DNA of 64,000 bases from the NCBI GenBank assembly GCA_041071465.1, contig CP163498.1, positions 1,640,001 through 1,704,000 of the forward strand, given 5' to 3'. The position numbers were made by a program, and so were the translations under genes. This document shows positions 4,172 through 18,465 of this stretch, in pieces. The notes below the pieces were generated by a model. It searched no databases and was not told the DNA's origin. It was given only the letters and a program-made list of their open reading frames with translations. How positions within the stretch are numbered: position 1 is the stretch's first letter; each line of letters begins with the position of its first letter. The DNA is from Pseudomonas putida (lineage in GTDB: Bacteria; Pseudomonadota; Gammaproteobacteria; Pseudomonadales; Pseudomonadaceae).

Positions 4172-4528
4172 GCGTGTGCCCTGGCGTTTGTTTTTATCTC
4201 ATGCACAACCGCAGCCATGGCGGTTGCACCCAGGCGGCGAATCCTATGCAACAACGCAAAGCAGGTGCAACCATTTTTCATTTGCAAGTTGCACCTTGCC
4301 GAGCATTTTTCGTAACAGCAGCCTTTTTGCTCCTTTTTGGAGCAAAAAGGCGGTTTTTCAGAATAAAACGCACCGAAAGCACCCCTTTTCAAGGTGTGGA
4401 AATGCCTGTCGGACGAGTTGCACCTTCTTCAGAAAAAATTCGGGTTGCACCTGGTTGCACCCGAATTGTCCTACAGCTACTCTTGGCGCCAGCTTAGGCC
4501 ACAGCCGTGGCAATAACGAGGATAAGAA
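4172..4528. promoter_or_regulatory. putP-putA divergent control region with seven GTTGCA operator motifs
   Basis: No gene lies here. The hexamer GTTGCA, reported as the binding core of E. coli PutA, occurs on the + strand at 4223-4228, 4288-4293, 4417-4422, 4444-4449 and 4454-4459, and as TGCAAC at 4247-4252 and 4266-4271. Random expectation for both strands of this length is about 0.2. The sites form a putP-proximal cluster of four and a putA-proximal cluster of three, fitting repression of both promoters by PutA bound at both ends. A 13-bp inverted repeat (4321-4351) separates the clusters. Confidence 0.85.
4321..4351. repeat. Perfect 13-bp inverted repeat between putP and putA
   Basis: GCCTTTTTGCTCC at 4321-4333 and GGAGCAAAAAGGC at 4339-4351, separated by TTTTT. 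It sits between the two groups of PutA-type sites. It could be a regulator-binding palindrome or a leader hairpin; nothing in the sequence decides. Confidence 0.7.
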
Positions 4529-7500
4529 ATGGCGACGACCACCCTTGGGGTCAAACTCGACGACCCGACCCGTGAGCGACTCAAAGCAGCTGCGCAGTCC
4601 ATTGACCGCACGCCGCACTGGTTGATCAAGCAAGCGATCTTCAACTATCTGGAGAAGCTCGAGGGTGGTGCCACCCTGACCGAACTCAACGGTCATGTCA
4701 GCAACCTGGCCGATGATGCCGGTGAAGTCCAGGCCGACCACAGCCACCAGTGCTTCCTCGAATTCGCCGAGAGCATCCTGCCGCAGTCGGTACTGCGCTC
4801 GGCGATCACTGCCGCCTACCGCCGCCCCGAGCAGGAAGTGGTGCCGATGCTGCTGGAGCAGGCACGCCTGAGCGCGCCATTGGCCGAAGCCACCAACAAG
4901 CTGGCAGCCGGCATCGCCGAAAAACTGCGCAACCAGAAGAGCGCTGGCGGCCGTGCCGGCATCGTCCAGGGCCTGTTGCAGGAGTTCTCGCTGTCGTCCC
5001 AGGAAGGCGTGGCACTGATGTGCCTGGCCGAAGCGCTGCTGCGCATCCCTGACAAGGGCACCCGCGACGCGCTGATCCGCGACAAGATCAGCACCGGCAA
5101 CTGGCAGCCGCACCTGGGCAACAGCCCGTCGCTGTTCGTCAACGCCGCTACCTGGGGCCTGCTGCTGACCGGCAAGCTGGTCAGCACCCATAACGAATCC
5201 GGCCTCACCTCCTCGCTCACCCGCATCATCGGCAAGAGCGGCGAGCCGATGATCCGCAAGGGCGTCGACATGGCCATGCGCCTGATGGGCGAGCAGTTCG
5301 TCACCGGTGAAACCATCGCCGAAGCCCTGGCCAACGCCAGCCGCTTCGAGGCCAAGGGTTTCCGCTATTCCTACGACATGCTCGGCGAAGCCGCGCTGAC
5401 CGAACACGACGCGCAGAAGTACCTGGCGTCCTACGAGCAGGCCATCCACTCGATTGGCAAGGCCTCCCATGGCCGCGGCATCTATGAAGGCCCAGGTATC
5501 TCGATCAAGCTGTCGGCACTGCACCCACGCTACAGCCGTGCCCAGTACGAGCGCGTGATGGAAGAGCTGTACCCGCGCCTGCTGTCGCTGACCCTGCTGG
5601 CCAAGCAGTACGACATCGGCCTGAACATCGACGCTGAAGAGGCCGACCGCCTGGAGCTGTCGCTCGACCTGCTCGAGCGCCTGTGCTTCGAACCTTCGCT
5701 GGCGGGCTGGAACGGCATCGGTTTCGTCATCCAGGCCTACCAGAAGCGCTGCCCGTACGTGATCGACTACGTCATCGACCTGGCCAAGCGCAGCCGCCAC
5801 CGCCTGATGATCCGCCTGGTTAAAGGCGCCTACTGGGACAGCGAGATCAAGCGTGCCCAGGTCGAAGGCCTGGAAGGCTACCCGGTGTACACCCGCAAGG
5901 TGTACACCGACGTGTCCTACGTTGCCTGCGCCCGCAAGCTGCTGGCCGTACCAGAAGCCATCTACCCGCAGTTCGCCACCCACAACGCCCACACCCTGTC
6001 GGCCATCTACCACATCGCCGGGCAGAACTATTACCCGGGGCAGTACGAGTTCCAGTGCCTGCACGGCATGGGTGAGCCGCTGTATGAGCAAGTGGTCGGC
6101 AAGATTGCCGATGGCAAGCTGAACCGCCCGTGCCGCGTCTATGCGCCGGTCGGCACCCACGAAACACTGCTGGCCTACCTGGTACGCCGCCTGCTGGAAA
6201 ACGGCGCCAACACCTCGTTCGTCAACCGCATCGCCGACCACTCCATCTCCATCCAGGAACTGGTCGCCGACCCGGTCGCCAGCATCGAGCGCATGGGCAC
6301 CCAGGAAGGCAGCATCGGCCTGCCGCACCCACGCATCCCGCTGCCGCGCGACTTGTATGGCAACGAGCGGGCCAACTCGGCCGGCATCGACATGGCCAAC
6401 GAACACCGCCTGGCGTCGCTGTCCTGCGCCATGCTGGCCACCGCTCACAACGACTGGAAAGCCGCCCCGCTGCTGGCCTGCGCCGCCAGCGATAGCGCTG
6501 CCGTGCCGGTGCTGAACCCGGCCGACCTTCGCGATGTGGTGGGCCATGTGCAGGAGGCCACCGTCGCCGATGTCGACAACGCCATCCAGTGTGCACTGAA
6601 CGCCGCACCGATCTGGCAGGCCACCCCACCCGCCGAACGTGCCGCCATTCTGGAGCGCACCGCCGACCTGATGGAGGCCGAGATCCAACCGCTGATGGGC
6701 CTGCTCATCCGCGAAGCCGGCAAAACCTTCGCCAACGCCATCGCAGAGGTGCGTGAAGCCGTGGACTTCCTGCGCTACTACGCGGTGCAGGCACGCAACG
6801 ACTTCAGCAACGACGCCCACCGCCCGCTGGGCCCGGTGGTGTGCATCAGCCCATGGAACTTCCCGCTGGCGATCTTCACCGGCCAGGTGGCCGCAGCCCT
6901 GGCTGCCGGCAACCCGGTACTGGCCAAGCCCGCCGAGCAAACCCCGCTGATCGCCGCCCAGGCCGTGCGCCTGCTGCTGGAAGCCGGCATCCCCGAGGGC
7001 GTGCTGCAGTTGCTGCCAGGCCGCGGTGAAACCGTCGGTGCTGGCCTGGTCGGTGACGAGCGCGTCAAAGGCGTGATGTTCACCGGCTCCACCGAAGTCG
7101 CCCGCCTGCTGCAGCGCAACGTCGCCGGTCGCCTGGACAACCAGGGCCGCCCGATCCCGCTGATCGCCGAAACCGGTGGCCAGAACGCGATGATCGTCGA
7201 CTCCTCGGCACTGACCGAGCAGGTGGTGATCGACGTGGTTTCCTCGGCCTTCGACAGCGCTGGCCAGCGTTGCTCGGCCCTGCGCGTACTGTGCCTGCAG
7301 GAAGACTCCGCCGACCGCGTGATCGAAATGCTCAAGGGCGCCATGGCCGAAAGCCGCCTGGGCTGCCCGGACCGCCTGGCCGTGGACATTGGCCCGGTGA
7401 TCGACGCCGAAGCCAAGGCCGGCATCGAGAAGCACATCCAGGGCATGCGTGAAAAAGGCCGCTCGGTCTATCAGGTTGCCATTGCCGATGCTGCCGAGAT

Positions 7501-8482
7501 CAAGCGCGGCACCTTCGTCATGCCAACCCTGATCGAGCTGGACAGCTTCGACGAGCTCAAGCGTGAAATCTTCGGCCCGGTACTGCACGTGGTGCGCTAC
7601 AACCGCCGCAACCTGGACCAGCTGATCGAGCAGATCAACAACTCTGGCTATGGCCTGACCCTCGGCGTGCACACCCGCATCGACGAGACCATCGCCAAGG
7701 TGGTGGAAACCGCCAATGCCGGCAACATGTACGTAAACCGCAATATTGTCGGTGCGGTGGTGGGCGTGCAGCCGTTCGGCGGTGAAGGCCTGTCCGGCAC
7801 CGGCCCGAAAGCAGGCGGCCCGCTGTACCTGTACCGCCTGCTGTCGACCCGCCCGGCCGACGCGATTGGCCGCCACTTCCAGCAGCAGGACGGCGAAGGC
7901 AAGCCAGACCGCACCCTGCACGAACAGCTGATCAAGCCGCTGCATGGTCTGAAGGCCTGGGCCGAGAGCAACCAGCTGGCTGACCTGGCTGCGCTGTGCG
8001 ACCAGTTCGCCAGCCAGTCGCAAAGCGGCATCGCCCGCCTGCTGCCAGGCCCGACCGGCGAGCGCAACAGCTACACCATCCTGCCGCGCGAGCACGTGCT
8101 GTGCCTGGCGGACAACGAAGCCGACCTGCTGGCGCAACTGGCTGCGGTACTGGCCGTTGGCAGCTCGGCGGTGTGGGCTGACAGCGAACCGGGCAAGGCC
8201 CTGCGTGCCCGCCTGCCGCGTGAGCTGCAGGCCAAGGTCAAGCTGGTGGCGGACTGGAACAAGGATGACGTGGCGTTCGACGCCGTGATCCACCATGGCG
8301 ACTCGGACCAGCTGCGCAGCGTGTGCCAGCAGGTGGCCAAGCGCGCCGGGGCGATCGTCGGTGTGCACGGGCTGTCCAGCGGGGATCACCAGATTGCGCT
8401 GGAGCGGTTGGTGATTGAGCGGGCGGTGAGTGTGAATACTGCGGCGGCGGGTGGTAACGCCAGCCTGATGACCATTGGCTGA
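4529..8482 (+). CDS. putA: Trifunctional proline utilisation protein PutA (PRODH / P5C dehydrogenase / repressor)
   Basis: Oxidises proline to glutamate in two channelled steps, with FAD-dependent proline dehydrogenase followed by NAD-dependent pyrroline-5-carboxylate dehydrogenase, and represses put genes when proline is absent. The 1317 residues show, in order: an N-terminal ribbon-helix-helix DNA-binding domain (ATTTLGVKLDDPTRERLK, about 1-47); the PRODH barrel (about 260-570, including EGPGISIKLSALHPRY and RLMIRLVKGAYWDSEIKRAQ); the aldehyde dehydrogenase domain (about 650-1110, with PWNFPLAIFTGQVAAALAAG, ETGGQNAM and the catalytic cysteine in SAGQRCSALR); and a C-terminal domain seen in long PutAs. 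GAGGA precedes the ATG. The intact RHH domain makes it a DNA-binding PutA that can act on the adjacent GTTGCA sites. Confidence 0.97.
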   Translation: MATTTLGVKLDDPTRERLKAAAQSIDRTPHWLIKQAIFNYLEKLEGGATLTELNGHVSNLADDAGEVQADHSHQCFLEFAESILPQSVLRSAITAAYRRPEQEVVPMLLEQARLSAPLAEATNKLAAGIAEKLRNQKSAGGRAGIVQGLLQEFSLSSQEGVALMCLAEALLRIPDKGTRDALIRDKISTGNWQPHLGNSPSLFVNAATWGLLLTGKLVSTHNESGLTSSLTRIIGKSGEPMIRKGVDMAMRLMGEQFVTGETIAEALANASRFEAKGFRYSYDMLGEAALTEHDAQKYLASYEQAIHSIGKASHGRGIYEGPGISIKLSALHPRYSRAQYERVMEELYPRLLSLTLLAKQYDIGLNIDAEEADRLELSLDLLERLCFEPSLAGWNGIGFVIQAYQKRCPYVIDYVIDLAKRSRHRLMIRLVKGAYWDSEIKRAQVEGLEGYPVYTRKVYTDVSYVACARKLLAVPEAIYPQFATHNAHTLSAIYHIAGQNYYPGQYEFQCLHGMGEPLYEQVVGKIADGKLNRPCRVYAPVGTHETLLAYLVRRLLENGANTSFVNRIADHSISIQELVADPVASIERMGTQEGSIGLPHPRIPLPRDLYGNERANSAGIDMANEHRLASLSCAMLATAHNDWKAAPLLACAASDSAAVPVLNPADLRDVVGHVQEATVADVDNAIQCALNAAPIWQATPPAERAAILERTADLMEAEIQPLMGLLIREAGKTFANAIAEVREAVDFLRYYAVQARNDFSNDAHRPLGPVVCISPWNFPLAIFTGQVAAALAAGNPVLAKPAEQTPLIAAQAVRLLLEAGIPEGVLQLLPGRGETVGAGLVGDERVKGVMFTGSTEVARLLQRNVAGRLDNQGRPIPLIAETGGQNAMIVDSSALTEQVVIDVVSSAFDSAGQRCSALRVLCLQEDSADRVIEMLKGAMAESRLGCPDRLAVDIGPVIDAEAKAGIEKHIQGMREKGRSVYQVAIADAAEIKRGTFVMPTLIELDSFDELKREIFGPVLHVVRYNRRNLDQLIEQINNSGYGLTLGVHTRIDETIAKVVETANAGNMYVNRNIVGAVVGVQPFGGEGLSGTGPKAGGPLYLYRLLSTRPADAIGRHFQQQDGEGKPDRTLHEQLIKPLHGLKAWAESNQLADLAALCDQFASQSQSGIARLLPGPTGERNSYTILPREHVLCLADNEADLLAQLAAVLAVGSSAVWADSEPGKALRARLPRELQAKVKLVADWNKDDVAFDAVIHHGDSDQLRSVCQQVAKRAGAIVGVHGLSSGDHQIALERLVIERAVSVNTAAAGGNASLMTIG

Positions 8483-8500
8483 GGCTGAGGGTTGTTGAAG

Positions 8501-8530
8501 AAAAGGGAGGGCTTAGGCTCTCCCTTTTTT
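8501..8530 (+). terminator. Rho-independent terminator of putA
   Basis: AAAAGGGAG ... CTCCCTTTTTT with an inner GC/GC pair and a TTAG loop, ending in a T6 run, 19 bases after the putA stop codon. Confidence 0.9.
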
Positions 8531-8587
8531 ATGGGCGGTTGTCTTGAGATAGGGTTGGGCTGACAGGTTCTCGCCACAGCATTATCT

Positions 8588-8864
8588 GCGCCTGTGAGAC
8601 CGAGCGCCGCCCGCGCGGCGCATCGCGACGCAAGGCCGCTCCTACATTTGTTTCGGGTCAGTCTCTCCTGTGCCTATGGCGCGCGTACCCTGGGTGGCAT
8701 GGCTGGAGATCGATAAAGAGCGACTGCGTCCCCTTCGATACCTCATGGAACACACAAGGCGGACAGCGGTGGTCTCACAGGATGGACTGGCCCGAAACAA
8801 ATGTAGGAGCGGCCTTGCGTCGCGATGCGCCGCGCGGGCGGCGCTCGATCTCATAGGCGCAGAA
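8588..8864. repeat. 277-bp inverted-repeat (REP pair) element, copy 1
   Basis: Two REP arms of about 76 bp in opposite orientation (GCGCCTGTGAGACCGAGCGC inward at the left, its complement at the right) enclose a unique core of about 120 bp. A nearly identical element lies at 13473-13747 in the same orientation, on the far side of the YcaO island. There is no transposase ORF. It resembles a composite REP/BIME or MITE-like unit. Its right arm is shared with the 225-bp direct repeat starting at 8802. Confidence 0.85.
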
Positions 8865-9026
8865 TTTGTTGTGGCGAACACCTGTCAGCCTTCATGCAAT
8901 CCGAAGGCGACCACTCACTGCTTCATGCCCAACTCGGCATCATCCATCAGCGCCTTGGCCATGGCGCTCAGGTAATGCGCAGCCCATATCATCATCGGTT
9001 TCTCGTCCATCAGCCCGGTGATGGTC
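8802..9026. repeat. 225-bp direct repeat flanking the YcaO island, left copy
   Basis: Aligns without gaps to 12488-12712, with 11 mismatches that I counted by eye (about 95% identity). It contains a REP arm and the 3' part of a DUF3077-type gene. Similarity stops abruptly at GGTGATGGTC (9026), after which the sequences are unrelated. Confidence 0.9.
8915..9026 (-). pseudogene. 3' fragment of a DUF3077-type gene
   Basis: Encodes the last 37 or so residues (TITGLMDEKPMMIWAAHYLS... to ELGMKQ) of the small protein at 12601-12864, with the same stop codon position relative to the repeat. Upstream of residue TITG the reading frame runs into unrelated sequence and a REP-like stretch (9068-9105), so the 5' half, start codon and ribosome site are missing. 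It is the truncated copy produced by the 225-bp duplication and is presumably non-functional. Confidence 0.8.
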
Positions 9027-9359
9027 GGTGCCCCGGTGGTATGCCGGCAAATTTGCTTTACCAACCAGATCGAGCGCCGCCCGCGCGGGCTTCGCAGTAC
9101 AAGGCTGCCCATCTCTTTCTGGCAAGTTAGGTCTGCACCAATGCGTAAGATTGGCTTGTTTCTTCGGCGTTCTATCTAGAGGAACACCAAGAACCAGGTG
9201 ATTCCCCAGAAACAACCTTCCCCCGGACCGATCATGACCCGCCTCTCTGTTGAGGGATCGTAATCCTTTCAGTGTTTTACAAAAAATTTAACCCCCCTAA
9301 CCCTCCACAAGCGCCAACCCGTTAATTAATGGGTGATTTTTCTGACCCTTCGAAGAAGT
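9027..9359. other. Non-coding, AT-rich left part of the island
   Basis: No convincing gene. A partial REP-like stretch lies at 9068-9105. Base composition drops sharply from about 9200 onward. A near-perfect palindrome, ACCCGTTAATTAATGGGT, lies at 9317-9334 (16 of 18 positions symmetrical) and could be a regulator site for the downstream peptide gene. Confidence 0.5.
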
Positions 9360-9397
9360 GTAGGAATAAAGCTACAAATGCCAGAAAGAATTCCTAC
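9360..9397. repeat. 8-bp inverted repeat upstream of the peptide gene
   Basis: GTAGGAAT (9360-9367) and ATTCCTAC (9390-9397) face each other across 22 bp. The right arm overlaps the first of two direct repeats at 9386-9406. It may belong to the same control element. Confidence 0.55.
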
Positions 9398-9431
9398 GCC
9401 GATCTTCCACTAAGAATTCCGGGCAGATCTT
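9386..9431 (+). promoter_or_regulatory. Tandem direct repeat abutting the island promoter
   Basis: AAGAATTCC-N6-GATCTT (9386-9406) and AAGAATTCC-N5-GATCTT (9412-9431) start 26 bp apart and end at the predicted -35 box. Two direct repeats about two and a half helical turns apart next to a -35 element are typical of an activator-binding site. Confidence 0.6.
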
Positions 9432-9457
9432 GAACCAAGGAAAAAACAAGTGATACA
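9430..9457 (+). promoter_or_regulatory. Candidate sigma-70 promoter of the YcaO locus
   Basis: TTGAAC (9430-9435), a 16-bp spacer and GATACA (9452-9457) would give a leader of roughly 45 nt before the peptide ATG. The match is moderate and the promoter is inferred. Confidence 0.45.
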
Positions 9458-9508
9458 AAAGCCCTGCGCAAAAAGCGCACTCAAACCAACTCTATAGGAG
9501 CAGTAGCC

Positions 9509-9607
9509 ATGGGACGTCGTCGTTCTGAAATCAATACTCTGCAAATCCCTCGCGTGATGAACTACACATTTACCGAGTCCGAGATTGAGTTCCTCAACAT
9601 GCTGTAA
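9509..9607 (+). CDS. 32-residue putative RiPP precursor peptide
   Basis: ATG with AGGAG eight bases upstream (9496-9500), then 32 codons and TAA. The peptide starts MGRRRSEIN, has a central LQIPRVMNYTF and ends ESEIEFLNML. There is no cysteine; Ser6, Thr10, Thr20, Thr22 and Ser24 are the only hydroxyl side chains available for azoline chemistry. The basic N-terminus and acidic/hydrophobic C-terminus are unlike any precursor I recognise. Position (directly upstream of a YcaO gene and an exporter), a strong ribosome site, small size and a hairpin right after the stop are the standard layout of a RiPP precursor gene. Function is inferred from context. Alternatives are a small signal peptide or a leader peptide controlling ycaO translation. 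Confidence 0.7.
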   Translation: MGRRRSEINTLQIPRVMNYTFTESEIEFLNML

Positions 9608-9615
9608 GCCATAAA

Positions 9616-9640
9616 CCAGAAGGGGCTTAGCCCCTTCTGG
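9616..9640 (+). terminator. Perfect hairpin between precursor and ycaO gene (attenuator or stabiliser)
   Basis: CCAGAAGGGGC / GCCCCTTCTGG, an 11-bp perfect stem with a 3-nt loop, 9 bases after the peptide stop codon and without a T tract. In RiPP operons such hairpins raise precursor mRNA relative to the downstream enzyme genes. Confidence 0.75.
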
Positions 9641-9659
9641 TCCGACATAGGAGCTAGAG

Positions 9660-10814
9660 ATGATTACCGAACGCGAGCTGACCACAGAAGAAGCATACAA
9701 CCGCCTGATAAGACTGCATCAGCACTTGGGCCTTCACTCGAAAACAAAACTATCAAAAAATAATAGCTTGGTCGCCACATGCCACTTATACAACAGCGCC
9801 TACCAAGAAGTGTCCTGCGGTGCAGGAAAGGGAGAACACTGTGAGCTAGGAGCTCTTGCTGAAAGCTTAGAGCATTACTTTGTCGACAAGTCGACGCCAA
9901 CCACCATCGCAAGCGAAAAAATTTTGCAGTCGATAGACCCGTTTGACGACTGGCTACTAAAGTCAATCCCGCCTCATTGCCAAATACCTTACTTTGGACT
10001 TCAAGCACTGGACAGCTATGACGAAATAAAAATACCCGCGATACTGATAGCCCCCTCCTCCAGAAATACCGATGAGATTGAGAAAACCGCGGCAGGGTAT
10101 CTTGCCAAATATGCGACCAATTCTGGCACAGCTATTGGCTGTACTGAGAGCGAAGCTCTCTTACACGCCATAAATGAATCTATCGAACGCCACACCCTGT
10201 CGATGTACTATCTATCGCTTTGCAACCTGACCTCCCCCCTAGAGATCTACCGACCCTCCAATTCATTTCTGGAAGACACCTTCACTCACGACAAGAAACT
10301 TTTGCGCCACGCAAGCAACCTAGAAATATACTTGACCCACGATTTCTATGACGTTCCATTTTGCATTGCTATCTCTCGCAACAAAAAAGAAGGCTCTCTC
10401 AGCGGCATCGGCTCGGGAAGCTCCATAAACCCATCGATTGCAATGTACCGCGCTGTAACTGAACAGATTCAGTGCGAACAACTTTCCGGACCGAAAGAAA
10501 AACAAGAAGATCTCGCCACGAAGAAAGTGCTTGCCTACTCAGAAAAACTTTCTCAACTTCTACACCCACGCCCTAAGTACAACGCGCCTGAATATCATCC
10601 GCCTCGTATAGAACTCAGCGTACGCGGACAGATCAAGCGCACGCTAATCAACCTGGGCAAGAATAATAAAACCGTATTCTACCGCACCCTATATGAGCAC
10701 CCCGACTTCGCCACAGTCGTACAAGTTTTTATACCCGGACTGGAGCGCTTCCATTTGATAAGGTCCGGGATTCCAGTCGCGCCGCAAAGCGCGTTCAAAC
10801 GCATAAGGCAATGA
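9660..10814 (+). CDS. Stand-alone YcaO-domain protein (putative RiPP modification enzyme)
   Basis: YcaO proteins use ATP to activate backbone amides of a peptide, giving azolines, thioamides or amidines. The 384 residues show the expected ATP-site blocks: GAGKGEHCELGALAESLEHY (54-73), SGTAIGCTESEALLHAINES continuing into IERHT (155-179) and GIGSGSSINPSIAMYRAVTE continuing into QIQ (249-271). The usual ERD of block two is ERH. The C-terminus reads PVAPQSAFKRIRQ and lacks the proline-rich PxPxP tail of azoline-forming members. No E1-like/ThiF partner, flavin dehydrogenase or TfuA lies nearby. GGAG sits 6 bases before the ATG. The DNA is clearly AT-richer, with rarer codons, than neighbouring housekeeping genes, which suggests transfer. 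Family call is strong; the reaction is unknown. Confidence 0.88.
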   Translation: MITERELTTEEAYNRLIRLHQHLGLHSKTKLSKNNSLVATCHLYNSAYQEVSCGAGKGEHCELGALAESLEHYFVDKSTPTTIASEKILQSIDPFDDWLLKSIPPHCQIPYFGLQALDSYDEIKIPAILIAPSSRNTDEIEKTAAGYLAKYATNSGTAIGCTESEALLHAINESIERHTLSMYYLSLCNLTSPLEIYRPSNSFLEDTFTHDKKLLRHASNLEIYLTHDFYDVPFCIAISRNKKEGSLSGIGSGSSINPSIAMYRAVTEQIQCEQLSGPKEKQEDLATKKVLAYSEKLSQLLHPRPKYNAPEYHPPRIELSVRGQIKRTLINLGKNNKTVFYRTLYEHPDFATVVQVFIPGLERFHLIRSGIPVAPQSAFKRIRQ

Positions 10815-10815
10815 T

Positions 10816-12465
10816 ATGCATATATACCGAGGCATACTCGCCGCCCTGAGCGCGACCTTAGTTCTCAAAGTCGCGACCGTCGTACCTGCCCTGATCCTGG
10901 CTGACATTATCGACAACCTGTCCACCTCGGCCTCGTCTTCTCTCGTTCTGCTCGGTGCCTTCATATGCCTTGTCGCCCTACAAGCCTCGTTGACCCCTTT
11001 GCAAGCCTGGTGCCTGGCGCGGCTCTGCCAGGAGCGCGTGAAGCAGCTTTCCATGCGCTGGTGCCGAGGGTTGCTGGACAAACGCTTCGAGGCCTATGGA
11101 CAACTCCATGGCGGAACCTTGGTGAAGGTACTGGATAGAGGAATTACGGCCCAGGAGCGATGGCTAGGCTTTCTGATCGGCTCGGCATGGCCGGTACTGG
11201 TCGAAGCTGTGGTACTGATCACGCTGTTCACGTACCTCGGAGCTACCTCGGTATTGATCGGCCTGGTCCCCTTGAGCTTGGCGTATCTGTGGGCAAACGA
11301 TCGGCTGGTGCGCTGGCGCCGGCCCCGTATCGAGGCAGTCAACTCGCGGGAGGACGAACTGGCGGAACAATGGGTTGATACCTTCGCCAGCGCCTCAACG
11401 GTCAAGCTGGAGAAGGCCGAGGATGCCGCAATGATTCCCGTGAACCAGACACTGTCGGGCTATGCCGACTCAGCGGTAGGGGTTGCCTACAGTGGCGGAT
11501 GGCTTCAGGGCTTGCGTACTCTATTCATTGGCCTGGGCAGTGGTGGTTTGCTCTTGTGGGGTATCCAAGATCAATCACAGGCAACACCGCATCTGAGCCT
11601 GGGCGAGCTTGTTGCCCTCTTTACCCTGGTGAGTGGATTGCTCGCCGGCGTTGCACAACTGGCGGAAGCCTGGCGGGTGCTCGACCAATTCAGACTCGAC
11701 AAACGCAAGCTCGAACACTGGCTCGGGCTTCCTGTGTTCGGACCGACAGTCTCCATAGAGGCAGAACCCAAAAATGAAAACGCAGGGCTTTGCATTACCC
11801 CCTGCCAACTCAGCGCTCGAAACGCGCTGCAACTGCTGATCGATGAGCCCTTGGTAATTCGTGCAGGAGAACGGGTCGCACTGGTTGGGCCCAGCGGGTG
11901 CGGCAAGTCGACACTTCTGCATGCGCTGGCAGGAACGGTATTCCAGTTGCGCAAGCATGTTTACTTGCACGGCAGATGCCTGGCTGCGCTCGGCGCGTGT
12001 GAGCAGTTCCGTCGTTTACGACTCTGCCCTCAGGATGCGTACTTCATACCCGGTCCACTGCCTCGCGCAGTCCTGTTCGAGCATGCTCATGATCGCGTTC
12101 AAATCGAACGGTGGCTTGAACACCTGGGGCTGAGCAAAGACTGGTACGAGCTTGATCTGGATGCACGCGCGGAATCCATTTCGGGTGGCGAAGCACGCAG
12201 GCTGATGTTGCTTCGCTTGCTTAACCGGCCCGGCGAATTCAATTTTTTTGACGAGCCCACAGCTGGGCTTGATGCCGGATCGGCTGCGCGAACCTGGGAT
12301 CTGCTGTTCGAAACATTCCAAGGGAAAGGGCTGATCTGCGTAACGCACGATCAGAGTGCCCTGTCACGCTTTGATCGGGTGATCACCATGAGCGAGGGAC
12401 GGATCATCAACCAAGAGAAAACGAAGATCGCTCAGGACGCTGGGCTACCGGGCGCTCGCACATAA
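10816..12465 (+). CDS. ABC exporter (fused membrane and ATPase domains), putative peptide export/immunity
   Basis: Starts 1 base after the ycaO stop (TGA-T-ATG), so translation is coupled. The 549 residues comprise an N-terminal membrane half with about five or six hydrophobic segments (1-290) and a C-terminal ATPase: Walker A VGPSGCGKST, Q-loop CPQDAYF, signature ISGGEARRLM, Walker B FNFFDEPTAGLD and switch histidine VTHDQ. There is no C39 peptidase domain, so it cannot itself cleave a double-glycine leader. It probably exports the modified peptide and may confer self-protection. GC content is intermediate between ycaO and the chromosome. Substrate is inferred from the operon. Confidence 0.88.
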   Translation: MHIYRGILAALSATLVLKVATVVPALILADIIDNLSTSASSSLVLLGAFICLVALQASLTPLQAWCLARLCQERVKQLSMRWCRGLLDKRFEAYGQLHGGTLVKVLDRGITAQERWLGFLIGSAWPVLVEAVVLITLFTYLGATSVLIGLVPLSLAYLWANDRLVRWRRPRIEAVNSREDELAEQWVDTFASASTVKLEKAEDAAMIPVNQTLSGYADSAVGVAYSGGWLQGLRTLFIGLGSGGLLLWGIQDQSQATPHLSLGELVALFTLVSGLLAGVAQLAEAWRVLDQFRLDKRKLEHWLGLPVFGPTVSIEAEPKNENAGLCITPCQLSARNALQLLIDEPLVIRAGERVALVGPSGCGKSTLLHALAGTVFQLRKHVYLHGRCLAALGACEQFRRLRLCPQDAYFIPGPLPRAVLFEHAHDRVQIERWLEHLGLSKDWYELDLDARAESISGGEARRLMLLRLLNRPGEFNFFDEPTAGLDAGSAARTWDLLFETFQGKGLICVTHDQSALSRFDRVITMSEGRIINQEKTKIAQDAGLPGART

Positions 12466-12487
12466 CCTACATTGCATTACCAGACCC

Positions 12488-12712
12488 TGTAGGAGCGGCC
12501 TTGTGTCGCGATCCGCCGCGCGGGCGGCGCTCGATCTCACAGGCGCAGAAGTTGTTGTGGCGGACACCTGTCAGCCTTCATGCGATCCGAAGGCGACCAC
12601 TCACTGCTTCATGCCCAACTCGGCATCATCCATCAGCGCCTTGGCCATGGCGCTCAGGTAGTGGGCAGCCCAGATCATCATCGGCTTCTCGTCCATCAGG
12701 CCGGTGATGGTC
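12488..12712. repeat. 225-bp direct repeat flanking the YcaO island, right copy
   Basis: Gap-free match to 8802-9026. It begins 22 bases after the exporter stop codon with a REP arm and covers the 3' end of the intact DUF3077-type gene. Recombination between the copies would remove 3,686 bp, including the whole peptide-ycaO-exporter unit. Confidence 0.9.
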
Positions 12713-12864
12713 AGTTCGCGTACATAGCCCATCAATTCCGACGACTGCTCGCGGGCGTCCCTGCAGGGGATGCCGGGCTCGATTCGGAACAGTGGATGCG
12801 TGCCGTTTTCGCCTTGGTAAAAAGCGGTCTTGCCGACGGTGAACTGGGTGTCTTCTGTTGTCAT
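12601..12864 (-). CDS. DUF3077-type small protein
   Basis: 87 residues starting MTTEDTQFTVGKTAFYQGEN, preceded by AGGTGA. It resembles the small DUF3077 proteins that are common and multicopy in Pseudomonas, with the conserved middle LFRIEPGIPCRDAREQSSEL and the C-terminal helix WAAHYLSAMAKALMDD. No function is established. Its 3' half lies within the right copy of the 225-bp repeat, and a truncated duplicate exists at 8915-9026. A small companion ORF lies just upstream (12979-13116). Confidence 0.75.
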   Translation of the reverse strand: MTTEDTQFTVGKTAFYQGENGTHPLFRIEPGIPCRDAREQSSELMGYVRELTITGLMDEKPMMIWAAHYLSAMAKALMDDAELGMKQ

Positions 12865-12895
12865 TGTTCAATCACCTGAAAATTCTCTAGTGCCT

Positions 12896-12936
12896 GGGCG
12901 GGCCCTTTCGCGGGTTTACCCGCGAAGAGGCCCGTC
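12896..12936. repeat. REP-type palindrome
   Basis: TTCGCGGGTTTACCCGCGAA core with flanking GGGC/GCCC arms, the P. putida REP type, located between the DUF3077-type gene and the ORF upstream of it. Confidence 0.8.
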
Positions 12937-12978
12937 CAAGCGACACATCACACAAGCCTTAATGCAAAGGCCGAGGCC

Positions 12979-13116
12979 CTACGGGCATCTGGGCTGAAGC
13001 AGCATTGCCTGATGCACCACGGTGGCGGCACATAGCGCGTAGTCCGTGGCCTGGATCAGGGTGTCTTCAAGGGAATGGGCGTTATGGGGTGGATCGAGGA
13101 CTATCTTCAGCATCAT
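12979..13116 (-). CDS. Small hypothetical protein (45 aa) paired with the DUF3077-type gene
   Basis: Starts MMLKIVLDPPHNAHSLEDTL and ends LLQPRCP, with AGGTG upstream of the tandem ATGs. Small proteins of this kind (LKI-V-DPP start, then an amphipathic helix) often sit beside DUF3077 genes in Pseudomonas, and DUF6124 proteins start similarly. Function is unknown. The reading frame, ribosome site and pairing support a real gene. Confidence 0.55.
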   Translation of the reverse strand: MMLKIVLDPPHNAHSLEDTLIQATDYALCAATVVHQAMLLQPRCP

Positions 13117-13167
13117 GGTTCACCTAGTGATAAAGGCCACCACACACCTGCTGTCAAACAAGAGGGT

Positions 13168-13244
13168 GGCAGCTGTACATGGGTTGACAGACCGGTAGGC
13201 AAACCAAAACCCGGCGCACACGAAGTGCCCCATGCACAGCTGCC
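13168..13244. repeat. 16-bp imperfect inverted repeat
   Basis: GGCAGCTGTACATGGG (13168-13183) and CCCATGCACAGCTGCC (13229-13244), one mismatch, 45-nt loop. It lies in a stretch (13117-13472) with no convincing gene. It could be a structured small RNA or a decayed element end. Confidence 0.45.
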
Positions 13245-13472
13245 ATAAAGGCAGAGCCATGCGGTTTGACCTAAGCAGCCTGTCAAAGCCGGTCACTGAT
13301 TTGGCAGCGACCACCCGAGACTAGGGCCCGATCCAGAGCACCGCAATGGCTTGAAGGGGTTTGGGAGTATGTTTGGGGAATGGACTACATGGAATAGGTG
13401 AAAACCTAAAATTGTCTGCCGAAACTGGCCGGAATGCGGTGAGGCTGGAAGGTGTTCGACTCACCCTTTGCA

Positions 13473-13747
13473 GCGCCTGTGAGATCGAGCGCCGCCCGCG
13501 CGGCGCATCGCGACGCAAGGCCGCTCCTACATTTGTTTCGGGCCAGTCTCTCCTGTGCCTATGGCGCGCGTAGCCTGGGTGCATGGCTGGAGATCGATAA
13601 GAGCGACTGCGCCCCCTTCGATACCGCATGGAACAAACAAGGCGGGCAGCGGTGGCCTAACAGGATGGACTGGCCCGAAACAGATGTGGGAGCGGCCTTG
13701 CGTCGCGATGCGCCGCGCGGGCGGCGCTCGGTCTCACAGGCGCAGAA
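13473..13747. repeat. 275-bp inverted-repeat (REP pair) element, copy 2
   Basis: Same orientation and nearly the same sequence as 8588-8864, differing by scattered substitutions and two single-base gaps. It marks the right end of the repeat-rich island before the acyl-CoA dehydrogenase gene. Confidence 0.85.
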
Positions 13748-13869
13748 AGCATCAAGGCAAGCACCTGTATGCCCCACCCGTTCTAAACCCATATCACCCA
13801 AACCTATTAACCTCCCCCCACACCACCCGATTCCCTACACTCGCAGCATCCCGCCTCAGGACCGCCCCC

Positions 13870-15672
13870 ATGCCCGAGACCCTGCTCAGCCCTCGTAACC
13901 TGGCCTTCGAGCTCTACGAAGTACTCGACGCCGAAGCCCTCACCCAGCGCCCGCGTTTCGCCGAGCACAGCCGTGAAACCTTCGACGCGGCACTGACCAC
14001 CGCCCGCACCATCGCCGAAAAGTACTTCGCCCCGCACAACCGCAAGGCCGACGAAAACGAGCCGCGCTACGTGGATGGTCGCGCGGAGCTGATCACCGAG
14101 GTGAAGCCTGCCGTCGACGCCTTCCTCGAAGCCGGCTTTCTCAACACCAACCGGGACTTCGAGGTGGGTGGCATGCAGCTGCCCAGCCTGGTGTCGCAGG
14201 CCTGCTTCGCCCACTTCCAGGCCGCCAACGCCGGCACCACGGCCTACCCATTCCTGACCATGGGCGCAGCCAACCTGATCGAGAGTTTCGGCACAGAGGA
14301 ACAGAAGCGCCTGTTCCTGCAACCGATGATCGAGGGCCGCTACTTCGGTACCATGGCGCTGACCGAGCCCCACGCCGGCTCGTCTCTGGCCGACATCCGC
14401 ACCCGCGCCGAACCTGCACCCGACGGCAGCTACCGGCTCAAAGGCAACAAGATCTTCATCTCCGGTGGCGACCACGAACTGTCGGAAAACATCGTGCACA
14501 TGGTGCTGGCCAAGCTGCCGGACGCCCCGCCCGGGGTGAAAGGCATCTCGCTGTTCATCGTGCCCAAGTTCAACGTCAACCCGGACGGCAGCCGTGGCCC
14601 GCGTAACGACGTGCTGCTGGCCGGCTTGTTCCACAAGATGGGCTGGCGTGGCACCACCTCCACCGCGCTGAACTTCGGCGACAACGGCGAGTGCGTCGGC
14701 TACCTGGTGGGCCAGCCGCACCAGGGCCTGGCCTGCATGTTCCAGATGATGAACGAGGCGCGTATCGGCGTCGGCATGGGTGCAGTGATGCTAGGTTACG
14801 CCGGCTACCTTCACTCGTTGGAATACGCCCGACAGCGTCCGCAGGGCCGGCTACCGGACAACAAAGACCCACACAGCCAAGCGGTGCCGATCATCGAACA
14901 TAGCGATGTAAAGCGCATGCTGCTGGCCCAGAAGGCTTACGTGGAAGGTGCCTTTGACCTGGGCCTGTATGCCGCCCGTCTATTCGACGATACTCACACC
15001 GCCAGCGAAGAAAGCACCCGCCAGCAGACCCAGGAACTGCTCGACCTGCTGACTCCGATCGTCAAGTCGTGGCCGTCGACGTTCTGCCTCAAGGCCAACG
15101 AACTGGCGATCCAGATTCTCGGCGGCCACGGCTACACCCGCGAATATCCGGTGGAACAGTATTACCGCGACAACCGCCTGAACCCGATTCACGAAGGCAC
15201 CGAGGGTATTCAGTCGCTCGACTTGCTTGGCCGCAAGCTGGCGCAAAACAATGGCGCCGGGCTCAAACAACTCATCCGCCTGATCGCCAACACCGGCGAG
15301 CGCGCCAGCCACCACCCCAACCTCGACCCACTGCGCCAGCCACTGGAACAACTGGTCAACCGCCTGCAAAGCGTAACGCTGGCCCTGCTCGGCGACCTGG
15401 CACAAGGCAAAGTCGCTGGCACCCTGGCCAACTCAGCCCTGTACCTCAAGGCTTTCGGCCATTGCGTGATCGGCTGGCGCTGGCTGGAGCAGGCGATTCA
15501 CGCCGAGCTTGGTTTGCTCAAGGGCAACGCTGCCGACCGCGACTTCTACCTCGGCAAGCTCCAGGCCGCACGTTATTTCCTGACCTGGGAAGTACCGGGC
15601 TGCCATAATGAGCTGGCATTGCTAGAGGCGCGCGACGATACCTGCCTCGCCATGCAAGACGGGTGGTTCTAG
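13870..15672 (+). CDS. Acyl-CoA dehydrogenase (FadE/DmdC-like)
   Basis: FAD-dependent alpha,beta-dehydrogenation of an acyl-CoA thioester. The 600 residues from ATG 13870 (MPETLLSPRNLAFELYEVLD) are the long form with an extra C-terminal helical domain. Visible motifs are TMALTEPHAGSSLADIRTRA (flavin/substrate loop), KIFISGGDHELSENIVH, WRGTTSTALNFGDNGECVG, QILGGHGYTREYPVEQYYRD and NPIHEGTEGIQSLD with the catalytic-type glutamate. The open frame extends upstream to 13555, but that part is read through the REP element, so the downstream ATG with AGGA is preferred. Substrate is unknown; medium/long-chain or aryl-acyl chains are likely. It lies immediately outside the island. Confidence 0.9.
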   Translation: MPETLLSPRNLAFELYEVLDAEALTQRPRFAEHSRETFDAALTTARTIAEKYFAPHNRKADENEPRYVDGRAELITEVKPAVDAFLEAGFLNTNRDFEVGGMQLPSLVSQACFAHFQAANAGTTAYPFLTMGAANLIESFGTEEQKRLFLQPMIEGRYFGTMALTEPHAGSSLADIRTRAEPAPDGSYRLKGNKIFISGGDHELSENIVHMVLAKLPDAPPGVKGISLFIVPKFNVNPDGSRGPRNDVLLAGLFHKMGWRGTTSTALNFGDNGECVGYLVGQPHQGLACMFQMMNEARIGVGMGAVMLGYAGYLHSLEYARQRPQGRLPDNKDPHSQAVPIIEHSDVKRMLLAQKAYVEGAFDLGLYAARLFDDTHTASEESTRQQTQELLDLLTPIVKSWPSTFCLKANELAIQILGGHGYTREYPVEQYYRDNRLNPIHEGTEGIQSLDLLGRKLAQNNGAGLKQLIRLIANTGERASHHPNLDPLRQPLEQLVNRLQSVTLALLGDLAQGKVAGTLANSALYLKAFGHCVIGWRWLEQAIHAELGLLKGNAADRDFYLGKLQAARYFLTWEVPGCHNELALLEARDDTCLAMQDGWF

Positions 15673-15703
15673 GGGGAGCCACCGTGTACACGGAGGCTTT
15701 TGC

Positions 15704-17146
15704 ATGTTCGATTCCAGCGCCCTGCTGCGCCAGCGCTTCGCCGCGCTGCGCAGTACGGCCGAGTTGTTTTCCCTGCGCCATGTGAAACAGTCGCACCAGG
15801 CGCTGTCGGTTCGGCGCAACGTTGCCGAACCACCGTTCTTCAGCCAGGACGAAGGCGCCATGCTCACCGTGCGGGTCAACGGCGTGGAGGCCTATGCGGC
15901 CACCGCCGACATGTCCCAGGCCGGCCTGCAACGCGCACTGGAACAAGCCGAGGCACTTGCCCGGCAGATCGCTCCGCACAGCCTGCTGGACCTGCGCGAG
16001 CAGCCGGTGACCAGCGCTCGTCACGACCACCTCTCACCCCATTTCGACCAGCCCGTGCCTAGCCTCGCCGACTGCCTCGGCCTGCTGGCTGCCGAATCGG
16101 CCAGCGTGCCAAAGGACAGCCGCCTGGTGGACTGGCAGGCCAGCCTGGGCCTGAGCCTGGTCGAGCAAACCTACCTGAACTCGGCCGGCGCCGAGCTACG
16201 CCATGCCCAGCGTTTCCTGTTCCCAGGCCTGGGTGTGACCGCCAGCGACGGCCAGGATAGCCAAAGCCGCAGCCTGGGCCGCGACAACTTCGGCCAACAG
16301 GGCGGTTTCGAGATCATCGAGCGCTGCGGACTGGTCGGCGCCGCGCGGCAGGTCGCCGACGAGGCACTGCAACTGCTGATGGCCCCCAACACCCCAAGCG
16401 GCCCGCGCGACCTGCTGCTGATGCCGGACCAGATGATGCTGCAGATCCACGAGTCCATCGGCCACCCGCTGGAGATGGACCGCATCCTCGGCGACGAGCG
16501 CAACTACGCCGGCACCAGCTTCGTCAAAGCCAGCGACTTCGGCCACCTGCAATACGGTTCCAGCCTGCTGAACGTAACCTTCGACCCGACCATCGGCGAA
16601 GAGCTGGCCAGCTACAGCTTTGATGATGACGGCACCCCGGCCAGCAAGCAGTTCCTGATCCGCGACGGCCTGCTGCTGCGCCCACTGGGCGGCGCGCTGT
16701 CGCAGTTCCGCTCTGGCCTGGACGGCGTGGCCAACAGCCGCGCCTGTGGCTGGAACCGTGCCCCGATCGACCGCATGGCCAACCTCAACATCGAACCGGG
16801 CGACCAAAGCCTGCAGCAGCTGATCCAGGGCATCGAGCACGGCATCCTGATGCGTACCAACCGTTCCTGGTCCATCGACGATGCGCGCAACAAGTTCCAG
16901 TTCGGCTGCGAATGGGGCCAACTGATCGAAAATGGCGAGCTGAAGGGCATCGTCAAGAACCCCAACTACCGTGGCATCTCCGCGCAGTTCTGGCTCAACC
17001 TGTCGGCCGTCGGCGACCGCAGCACCTTCCAGGTACTGGGCACGCCCAACTGCGGCAAGGGCGAACCCAACCAGGTGGTGCGGGTCGGCCATGCCTCGCC
17101 GGCCTGCGTGTTCCGCCAGATCGACGTATTCGGAGGAGACGCCTGA
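15704..17146 (+). CDS. TldD-family metalloprotease subunit
   Basis: Zinc-bearing subunit of a TldD/TldE heterodimeric protease. The 480 residues carry the HExxxH zinc motif in LQIHESIGHPLEMDRILGDE near residue 250 and the distal GWNRAPIDRMANLNIEPGD and NCGKGEPNQVVRVGHASPAC regions. Start MFDSSALLRQRFA follows GGAGG. Its stop overlaps the ATG of the partner gene. The sequence differs from the canonical housekeeping TldD I know, so it is probably a second, paralogous pair. The family is known for removing the leader of microcin B17, a YcaO-modified peptide, and a YcaO locus ends 3.2 kb upstream. Confidence 0.88.
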   Translation: MFDSSALLRQRFAALRSTAELFSLRHVKQSHQALSVRRNVAEPPFFSQDEGAMLTVRVNGVEAYAATADMSQAGLQRALEQAEALARQIAPHSLLDLREQPVTSARHDHLSPHFDQPVPSLADCLGLLAAESASVPKDSRLVDWQASLGLSLVEQTYLNSAGAELRHAQRFLFPGLGVTASDGQDSQSRSLGRDNFGQQGGFEIIERCGLVGAARQVADEALQLLMAPNTPSGPRDLLLMPDQMMLQIHESIGHPLEMDRILGDERNYAGTSFVKASDFGHLQYGSSLLNVTFDPTIGEELASYSFDDDGTPASKQFLIRDGLLLRPLGGALSQFRSGLDGVANSRACGWNRAPIDRMANLNIEPGDQSLQQLIQGIEHGILMRTNRSWSIDDARNKFQFGCEWGQLIENGELKGIVKNPNYRGISAQFWLNLSAVGDRSTFQVLGTPNCGKGEPNQVVRVGHASPACVFRQIDVFGGDA

Positions 17147-18465
17147 TGCAACATGCTTTCGAAACCCTGGTCGGGGATGTGCGCGCCGCCCTGCAAGCAG
17201 GCGAACAGTTCACCCTCGGCTACAGCGCCGAACAGTCGCAATTCGTGCGTTTCAACCACGCCAAGGTGCGCCAGGCCGGTGAAGTGAGCCAGGCCAGCGC
17301 TCAACTGCGGCTGGTGCACGATGGCCGCCAGGCGGAACAGCAAGTGACCTTGAGTGGCGAGGTGCAGGTGGACCGCCAGCGCCTGGCCGATGCTCTGGCG
17401 CAATTGCGCCAGACCCTGCCGCTGTTGGCCCTCGACCCCTACCTGCGCCTGGACGAAAGCGCCTGGCACAGCCACAGCCTGCAAGAACAACCACTGCCCG
17501 AGCTGGACGAAGTGCTGGCCTTGCTCGACAGCGAGGCAGGTGACCTGGACCTGGTCGGCATCTACGCCGCAGGCCCTATCTGCCGAGGCTTTGCCAGTTC
17601 GTTCGGGGCCTTTGGCTGGCACCAGGCCAACAGTTTCAACTTCGACTGGAGCCTTTTCCACGAAAACGGCCAGGCGGTGAAGGCCAACTATGCCGGCCAG
17701 CTGTGGAGCGCCGAAGACTTCATCGCACGCCTGCGCCAGGCACGTGAACAACTGGGCTTCCTCGGTCGCCCGGCGATCACCCTCAAACCGGGAAGCTACC
17801 GCGCCTACCTGGCCCCGGCAGCCATGGACGAGATCGCCGGCATGCTCTGCTGGGGCGGTTTTTCCGCGCAGGCCCTGGCCACTGGCAACAGCGCCCTGCA
17901 GCGCTTGTACAACGGCGATGCACGGCTGAGCCCGCTGGTGAGTTTCACCGAGCAGGTCAGCGGGTCGCTAAGCCCGGCGTTTTCCGACGAAGGTGCGCCG
18001 CGCCTGGATGTGCCGTTGATCCAGCAGGGCCAGGCCCAGCAGCGATTGATCAGTGCGCGCAGTGCGGCCGAGTTCGAGCTGCTGGCCAATGGCGCCGACA
18101 GCTACGAGTCGCCCTGTGCGCTCAGCCTGGCACCGGGTAACCTGGCCAGCGAGCAGGTCCTTGAGCGACTGGGTACTGGGCTGTACATCAGTAACCTGTG
18201 GTACCTGAACTACTCTGACCTTCCGGCAGCGCGGATGACCGGTTTGACCCGATTCGCCACTTTCTGGGTGGAAAACGGGCAGATCCAGGGGCCGGTAAGT
18301 ACCATGCGTTTCGATGACAGCCTGTACAGCCTGCTCGGCAGCCAGCTGGAGGACCTGACCCAGGCGCGCGAAATGATCCTGTCGACCAGTACCTATGGAC
18401 AGCGCAGTACCGGGTCGAGTCATTTGCCGGGGGCACTGGTCAAAGGCCTGACCCTGACATTGTGA
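17146..18465 (+). CDS. TldE/PmbA-family protease subunit
   Basis: Partner of the preceding TldD-type protein. Its ATG shares the final A of the upstream TGA, indicating strict co-translation. The 439 residues start MQHAFETLVGDVRAALQAGE and lack the HExxxH motif, as expected for the non-catalytic subunit. Conserved PmbA features include ASFGAFGWHQANSFNFDWSL, LYISNLWYLNYSDLPAARMT and FWVENGQIQGPVSTMRFDDS. TldE completes the chamber that threads unfolded peptides to the TldD active site. Confidence 0.87.
   Translation: MQHAFETLVGDVRAALQAGEQFTLGYSAEQSQFVRFNHAKVRQAGEVSQASAQLRLVHDGRQAEQQVTLSGEVQVDRQRLADALAQLRQTLPLLALDPYLRLDESAWHSHSLQEQPLPELDEVLALLDSEAGDLDLVGIYAAGPICRGFASSFGAFGWHQANSFNFDWSLFHENGQAVKANYAGQLWSAEDFIARLRQAREQLGFLGRPAITLKPGSYRAYLAPAAMDEIAGMLCWGGFSAQALATGNSALQRLYNGDARLSPLVSFTEQVSGSLSPAFSDEGAPRLDVPLIQQGQAQQRLISARSAAEFELLANGADSYESPCALSLAPGNLASEQVLERLGTGLYISNLWYLNYSDLPAARMTGLTRFATFWVENGQIQGPVSTMRFDDSLYSLLGSQLEDLTQAREMILSTSTYGQRSTGSSHLPGALVKGLTLTL

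Follow-up and report, generated by a model that had tools for sequence, protein, structure and literature searches.

A compact peptide, YcaO and exporter cassette in Pseudomonas putida as a candidate minimal RiPP family

RiPPs (ribosomally made, post-translationally modified peptides) that depend on YcaO enzymes, and YcaO enzymes that stand alone, are already known; what is probably new in the locus analyzed here is its YcaO clade, its peptide motif and its three-gene layout. This locus, a cassette of a short peptide gene, a standalone YcaO gene and an ABC (ATP-binding cassette) exporter gene, lies in a 64,000-nt stretch of Pseudomonas putida DNA (the window, to which coordinates refer unless another sequence is named). 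The two YcaOs of bottromycin biosynthesis, BtmE and BtmF in PMC5103208, are also called BmbD and BmbE. They are described as partner-free, form a thiazole and a macroamidine, and act on a precursor whose C-terminal part is a follower (PMC7136475). Bottromycin cyclization requires removal of the N-terminal Met, and host enzymes handle the sequence MGP poorly (PMC5103208). Streptamidine carries an N-terminal amidine ring, and the precursors of its family are without Ser/Thr/Cys-rich regions (PMC8442711). The YcaO of Escherichia coli forms a thioamide without TfuA (PMC13063428). As nucleophile a YcaO may employ, among others, a ribosomally installed group, the N-terminus or an exogenous group (PMC12338566), and a survey of gene clusters for thiazole/oxazole-modified microcins (TOMMs) left the stand-alone 'non-TOMM' YcaOs unexplored (PMC4603692).

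The gene unit spans 9509-12465 and forms one self-contained operon. Its first gene, for the putative precursor peptide (9509..9607, + strand), encodes 32 amino acids that start with MGRRRSEI and end with ESEIEFLNML. It is preceded by a strong ribosome-binding site, AGGAG (9496..9500, +), 8 nt 5' of the ATG, and the same AGGAG was present in all five aligned loci. A hairpin with a perfect 12-bp stem, a 3-nt loop and no T-run after it (9615..9641, +) separates the peptide gene from that of the standalone YcaO (9660..10814, +; 384 aa, Pfam PF02624). The ABC exporter (10816..12465, +; 549 aa) consists of a membrane domain fused to an ATPase (PF00664 and PF00005), and its ATG lies one base past the YcaO stop, which indicates that the two genes are coupled. 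All of the elements that an earlier note on this DNA had listed, a 32-codon ORF (open reading frame) with a strong ribosome site, a hairpin, a YcaO gene and a translationally coupled exporter, were thus recovered. The start that it gave for the unit, 9386, is upstream of the first gene and had to be moved to 9509, and its description of the DNA as AT-richer suits the peptide gene (45.5% GC) and the YcaO gene (48.1%) against 62.8% for the window, with the exporter gene (58.4%) fitting far less. A conserved stretch, TTGAAC..GATACA, was also seen upstream of the peptide gene.

YcaO genes were found at 45 places in 44 of 398 Pseudomonas genomes. Neighboring genes and the YcaO tree assigned 25 of these places to group A (7), group B (17) and the single locus L059, and the other 20, which show 28-33% identity, to group C. 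Two extra loci, L001 and L003, were taken from named Pseudomonas contigs (L002 is a duplicate from the same record as L036), and YcaO matches lay on five plasmid records, the Nonomuraea one being left out of the locus comparison. The resulting 30 distinct loci outside group C comprise nine of group A (including the window, L001 and L003), 17 of group B, L059 and three Vibrio plasmids. A search of YcaO neighborhoods for a co-conserved peptide ORF had been set beforehand as the test that could refute a RiPP reading, and in 30 of 30 loci (27 from Pseudomonas, three from Vibrio) the gene immediately upstream of YcaO proved to be an ORF whose product starts with MG-x-[KR]-R-[ST]-E-[IV]. As an ABC exporter gene lies directly downstream of YcaO in all 30 loci too, this arrangement is not a product of chance.

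The motif ORFs are 32-65 aa long, and the 64-aa example of L040 reads into a partly deleted YcaO gene. Vibrio peptides start with MGKKRSEIN or MGNKRSEIN although the Vibrio YcaOs are only 25.5-27.3% identical to that of the window. Alignment of 24 peptides revealed M1, G2, R5, E7, E25 and F28 to be invariant, and a C-terminal ExxF[FLY] block is conserved, Vibrio included, behind a variable middle. Position 6 is Ser in 24 of the 30 loci and Thr in the other six, and the Thr6 rows are spread over three or more separate branches of the YcaO tree (L041; L051, L052 and L055; L059; with L048 off the tree). The C-terminal half of the 24 aligned peptides holds no invariant Ser, Thr or Cys; Cys is absent from all 24 and present in the L059 and Vibrio peptides. 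A study of a peptide-nucleobase YcaO reportedly places the chemistry at Asn, and no Asn is invariant in the peptide. Among seven group A loci the nonsynonymous rate (dN, 0.05-0.34) was below the synonymous rate (dS, 0.19-1.6) in 21 of 21 pairs. Judged from these substitutions, the peptide ORF is a real gene under purifying selection.

At E<=1, the peptide had no match among the Pfam and NCBIfam models. When the 398 Pseudomonas genomes were scanned with a peptide profile, 27 of them matched at E<=0.01, of which 24 were the profile's own seeds or known carriers and give no independent support; G115 and G315 contain decayed cassettes with an adjacent exporter gene, and G014 (E 0.0097) is unaccounted for. 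Away from the cassette, the profile thus picked up almost no peptide. Searches with a group B YcaO in 390 genomes of the order (E<=1e-25) and with the Vibrio YcaO in 369 genomes of the class (E<=1e-15) returned the window's own genome only.

The hairpin was followed through groups A, B and C and L059 (without L040, and with the one record behind L002 and L036 counted twice). A perfect stem of at least 8 pairs occurs just past the peptide gene in 31 of 38 Pseudomonas rows, built from 22 different stem sequences, and the folding z-score was below -2 in 30 of 38 (60 shuffles each). For the window hairpin it reached -4.3 against 60 dinucleotide shuffles, and in the two Vibrio loci that were folded a comparable stem was missing. 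Retention of the stem structure while its sequence changes argues that the hairpin is functional, and it probably sets the ratio of peptide to enzyme.

The YcaO protein matched PF02624 with 73.8 bits (cut-off 25.7) over residues 147-362. E68, E71, E176, R177, R264, E268 and Q271 are invariant and E173 is nearly invariant in an alignment of 69 rows, A3, and these residues presumably occupy the positions of the motifs that form the ATP site in YcaOs. The ATP-site blocks recognized in the earlier note are thereby kept, and the ATP site is predicted to be functional. A structural model (predicted local distance difference test score 94.4) has the full YcaO fold and aligns end to end with other YcaOs; no RRE (RiPP recognition element) domain was seen when the predicted model was compared with them. 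The best sequence and fold matches are Mj-YcaO, Mk-YcaO and the E. coli YcaO that thioamidates uL16, and the best NCBIfam match, TIGR03266 (McrA-glycine thioamidation), remained below its cut-off (48.9 against 365 bits). The TOMM YcaO model TIGR03604 was not reached either (40.3 bits, cut-off 219.25). A tree of 61 YcaO rows placed groups A and B, L059, the Vibrio enzymes and P0054 (in the clade by this tree, outside the 30-locus count) on one side of a branch with support 100/99. It omits L003, L040, L048 and L058, which are broken or short, the duplicate L002, and L063, L067 and L074. The cassette YcaOs form a clade of their own among these 61 rows, in which the outside is represented by 21 of 112 proteins and the bottromycin, streptamidine and trifolitoxin YcaOs are not included. 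The host genome encodes only one other YcaO (G000 contig 1, 4652113-4653120; 219.9 bits), 3 Mb away and perhaps of the ribosomal-protein thioamidation type.

The earlier note had pointed out that the unit lacks a ThiF/E1-like partner, a dehydrogenase and TfuA, and indeed none of these is present within the three-gene unit. Searches were extended to 21 of the 25 carrier genomes (G245, G225, G273 and G125 left out). The cyclodehydratase model TIGR03882 exceeded its cut-off in none of the 21; sub-cut-off matches were obtained in 20 of them and in five of 14 controls, and as no control exceeded the cut-off the search had no positive control. The SagB-type FMN (flavin mononucleotide) dehydrogenase model TIGR03605 was over cut-off in nine of the 21 genomes, never beside the cassette (about 0.6 Mb from it in the window's own genome); the other 12 had no match over cut-off, and three of these had weaker matches. 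TfuA (PF07812) gave no match in the window's genome, the only carrier genome searched for it, and did match in the Methanosarcina acetivorans control. No sulfur-delivery gene is contained in the unit. A partner encoded at a distance, which the earlier note had considered through clustering of the YcaO with families that have one, was rejected, given a cyclodehydratase that is only sub-cut-off, as in the five controls, and a dehydrogenase scattered over nine of 21 genomes; this holds for the 21 genomes searched and within the limits of a screen that had no positive control. Since no partner either reaches its cut-off or accompanies the cassette, the YcaO most likely works without one.

Comparison with bottromycin, made by gene content, reveals four shared traits, a YcaO without an E1-like partner, a follower-type precursor (here a putative one), an N-terminal Met-Gly and a dedicated transporter (PMC5103208, PMC7136475). 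The cassette differs in having one YcaO instead of two and in containing no methyltransferase, amidohydrolase or P450 gene, and the bottromycin set of two YcaOs with methyltransferases was not found near it. The streptamidine family of Actinobacteria and Firmicutes likewise combines a standalone YcaO with a precursor lacking a Ser/Thr/Cys-rich region, the amidine chemistry being that of the streptamidine family; its main set adds four iron-transporter genes, a hydrolase, a dehydrogenase and two ABC transporter genes (PMC8442711), in place of which a single exporter is found here. Judged by gene content, this ami gene set is absent from the three-gene unit. The thioamide-forming E. coli YcaO and MCR (methyl-coenzyme M reductase) enzymes act on proteins, and the E. 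coli gene has no peptide gene nearby (PMC13063428). Linear azol(in)e-containing peptides of the microcin B17 type, known also from Pseudomonas, share a YcaO operon with ABC-type transporters (PMC4603692) and TldD/E-type genes in the host; the cassette departs from them in the missing over-cut-off cyclodehydratase (21 of 25 carriers), in having no adjacent dehydrogenase and in a peptide without a Gly/Cys/Ser-rich core. A Pseudomonas YcaO-TfuA cluster from a pan-genome study pairs a putative precursor with a YcaO in the same manner, together with TfuA, E1/ThiF-like, ubiquitin-like, MFS (major facilitator superfamily) and methyltransferase genes, none of which is in this unit (PMC8719888). Literature searches on YcaO RiPPs (Pseudomonas and Vibrio, standalone, bottromycin, trifolitoxin, peptidase and nucleobase), in which subscription journals were scarce, did not return this family among the matches listed.

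Group C, for which 16 of 20 YcaO places were fetched (L060-L075), resembles the cassette in that a short ORF starting with MG lies upstream of YcaO in 11 of 16 loci, often with a hairpin. In contrast to the cassette, its peptides start with MGY and have an acidic end, its YcaO belongs to another branch, and methyltransferase-type and alpha/beta-hydrolase-type genes replace the exporter, for which no match was obtained downstream of YcaO in the 16 loci. A 316-aa gene was clustered in all 16 of these loci and a 292-aa gene in 13; the neighbors in L061, the only group C locus scanned, are an S-adenosylmethionine methyltransferase and an alpha/beta hydrolase. With group C, Pseudomonas may have a second peptide family, one that resembles bottromycin. 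A more distant relative on a Streptomyces plasmid (L085, 5722-8911) consists of a 53-aa ORF starting with MG, a YcaO gene and an annotated SagB-family dehydrogenase.

Taken together, we put a probability of about 0.7 on the cassette being a compact minimal RiPP family in which the YcaO modifies the peptide near its N-terminal block and the C-terminus serves as follower. Placed first in the operon, its gene would supply the precursor in excess, with the hairpin helping to set the peptide:enzyme ratio. Met-Gly followed by Arg, Lys, Ser or Asn is a usual substrate of methionine aminopeptidase. The host enzyme would uncover Gly2, and since the cassette peptides carry MG[RKSN] in place of the MGP of bottromycin, a dedicated aminopeptidase may be unnecessary. 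The YcaO itself would bind the precursor, probably through ExxF[FLY]; lacking an invariant Ser, Thr or Cys, that region is the more plausible docking segment. Close to the block G-x-[KR]-R-[ST]-E-[IV], the enzyme would then use ATP for the activation of a backbone carbonyl. The Gly2 amine and the Ser/Thr6 hydroxyl are the two obvious nucleophiles among the invariant residues, and the product would therefore be either an amidine ring formed by the N-terminal amine after Met removal or an (methyl)oxazoline between R5 and S/T6. We hold these two about equally probable, with a thioamide in third place. The exporter would pump the product out and may give self-protection. Its membrane domain starts at residue 9, and no peptidase, including an N-terminal C39 domain of the double-glycine type, was found among the best 25 of 27 Pfam matches. 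With no protease gene in the unit either, the product is not trimmed or any trimming would be left to a host protease. Product, chemistry, processing and activity are predictions from sequence.

Several observations weigh against this interpretation. The modified residue is deduced from conservation alone, and a conserved N-terminus is also typical of a classic leader. The closest solved relative of the YcaO, by sequence and by fold, is the thioamide-type Mj-YcaO, which does not speak for an amidine or oxazoline. The YcaO C-terminus carries no PxPxP, as the earlier note had stated; it does end with ..GIPVAPQ.., in which P375 is invariant in 40 rows of another alignment (A1) and nearly so in A3. 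Neither protease, immunity nor regulator genes lie within the three-gene unit, a scan for consensus promoters found none, and the peptide profile missed the L059 peptide (its genome, G300, was absent from the matches). The other group A exporters are 70-92% identical to the window's protein, those of group B and L059 35-41%, and those of Vibrio 24-27%, a level that unrelated ABC exporters can reach, so that the Vibrio figure proves no special relationship. Finally, macrocyclization of bottromycin has been assigned to BtmF with a partner, BtmI (PMC5103208), so that partner-free amidine formation is not beyond dispute.

Four other explanations were considered. In a classic leader-core arrangement, the YcaO would recognize the conserved N-terminal MGxxRSEI as leader and modify a core in the variable middle or C-terminal part (for example T, S and Y residues or the ending FFASLT). 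Leaders are usually the conserved half, the peptide middle is indeed variable and many rows have S and T in the C-terminal half; yet ExxF[FLY] is conserved at that end too, even in Vibrio, no S, T or C is invariant there, and neither an RRE domain on the YcaO nor a peptidase on the exporter to cut a leader was seen. We regard this arrangement as unlikely, if well worth keeping in mind. Backbone thioamidation with sulfide supplied by the host, as by the E. coli and methanogen YcaOs, appears improbable. It draws on Mj-YcaO as nearest solved structure, on TIGR03266 as best, sub-cut-off NCBIfam match and on the E. coli enzyme that needs no TfuA (PMC13063428), and is opposed by the absence of TfuA from the window's genome and of a sulfur-delivery gene from the unit. 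The proximity to Mj-YcaO is itself weak, as the solved structures listed as fold matches include no bottromycin-type YcaO and their ranking carries no weight with respect to that type. The earlier note went too far in holding azoline and thioamide formation by known routes to be not obviously possible, since standalone YcaOs are known for such chemistry (PMC7136475, PMC13063428).

The remaining two explanations deny that the peptide is modified. In line with the title of the MusD structure entry, the YcaO could act on the peptide as an ATP-dependent peptidase and leave the exporter to release an unmodified fragment. MusD, however, is no closer to the YcaO model than the cyclodehydratases LynD and McbD, and two conserved peptide ends would have no obvious reason, which makes this proposal very improbable. 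Attenuators usually consist of a short ORF with a stem-loop behind it, and the peptide might accordingly be a regulatory leader of the YcaO and exporter genes instead of a substrate. This would leave unexplained that amino acids, beyond codons, are conserved at both peptide ends across genera with dN below dS; moreover, the stem has no T-run, the gap between peptide and YcaO genes in Vibrio is only 23-30 nt and the two folded Vibrio loci have no comparable stem. We give attenuation hardly any credence. The earlier proposal of a candidate new RiPP family with a minimal peptide, YcaO and exporter layout in foreign DNA is upheld by the co-conserved peptide, the separate YcaO clade and an empty insertion site in a genome of the same species.

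This genome, G289, has no YcaO match (E<=1e-20) and an empty cassette site. Window positions 3501-8864 are 99.6% identical to 6176-11537 of its locus L089 and positions 13473-16210 are 97.8% identical to 11263-14001, the intervening stretch being absent there. The two matches overlap by 275 bp, so that a repeat with two copies in the window has one copy in G289, which places the cassette in a 4.6-kb insert (8865..13472) bounded by direct repeats. The left, REP-like (repetitive extragenic palindromic) repeat lies at 8588..8864 (8588-8817 is 94% identical to 13473-13700), the right one at 13473..13747. A second pair, 8802-9026 and 12488-12712, is 95% identical and includes part of a DUF3077 gene fragment, a 3' portion, on the left side of the cassette (8915..9112, -; PF11275 partial, 25.2 bits); an intact DUF3077 gene lies to the right within the insert (12601..12864, -; PF11275, 64.6 bits). 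The cassette is foreign and inserted in this strain, and the REP-like repeats (8588-8864, 12488-12712 and 13473-13747) suggest entry by recombination between repeats. A phage origin was considered and dropped, no phage record having matched. Sequence around the right end of the DUF3077 gene recurs, in stretches, at many sites of G289, and beside this gene, inside the insert, are a C4-type antisense RNA (RF01695, 13162-13250, -) and next to it a member of the a1/b1 target family (RF03163, 13272-13324, -).

The flanks hold PutA on the left and an acyl-CoA dehydrogenase and a TldD/TldE-like pair (15704-18462, +) on the right, with the DUF3077 copies between; none is a usual YcaO partner. The pair was rejected as a dedicated protease: its TldD-like gene is 100% identical in G289, which lacks the cassette YcaO, and of nine other genomes checked eight have a full-length match at 77-96% identity, with G003 showing a distant match only. 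The pair is thus genomic context and at most a possible host protease. It comes in addition to two PF01523 matches at 3.25 Mb in the host genome.

Decaying cassettes were found at L087 (G115), L088 (G315), L040 and L003, in which YcaO is truncated, deleted or split and the exporter is retained, a pattern that would fit a role of the exporter in self-protection. From cassettes that are sporadic, inserted and decaying we infer, weakly, that the product most likely serves as an antimicrobial of narrow range or as a signal between close relatives. A more specific proposal, which we offer tentatively and with some doubt, is a gram-negative RiPP class in which a partner-free YcaO turns the N-terminal block into a cyclic amidine or a new modification (for example one that uses the side chain of the invariant Arg); the C-terminus would be the follower and the exporter the only other gene, and it would perhaps be the smallest YcaO natural-product pathway, common to Pseudomonas chromosomes and Vibrio plasmids.

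If the RiPP interpretation is true, a YcaO natural product needs no more than one enzyme and one pump. The pathway would then be easy to rebuild in E. coli and would offer a clean way to test substrate recognition and nucleophile choice by a standalone YcaO. The sequence MG-x-[KR]-R-[ST]-E-[IV] followed by ExxF[FLY] offers a direct search rule for further members. Inserted in this P. putida strain and plasmid-borne in Vibrio, the trio may shape competition between close relatives.

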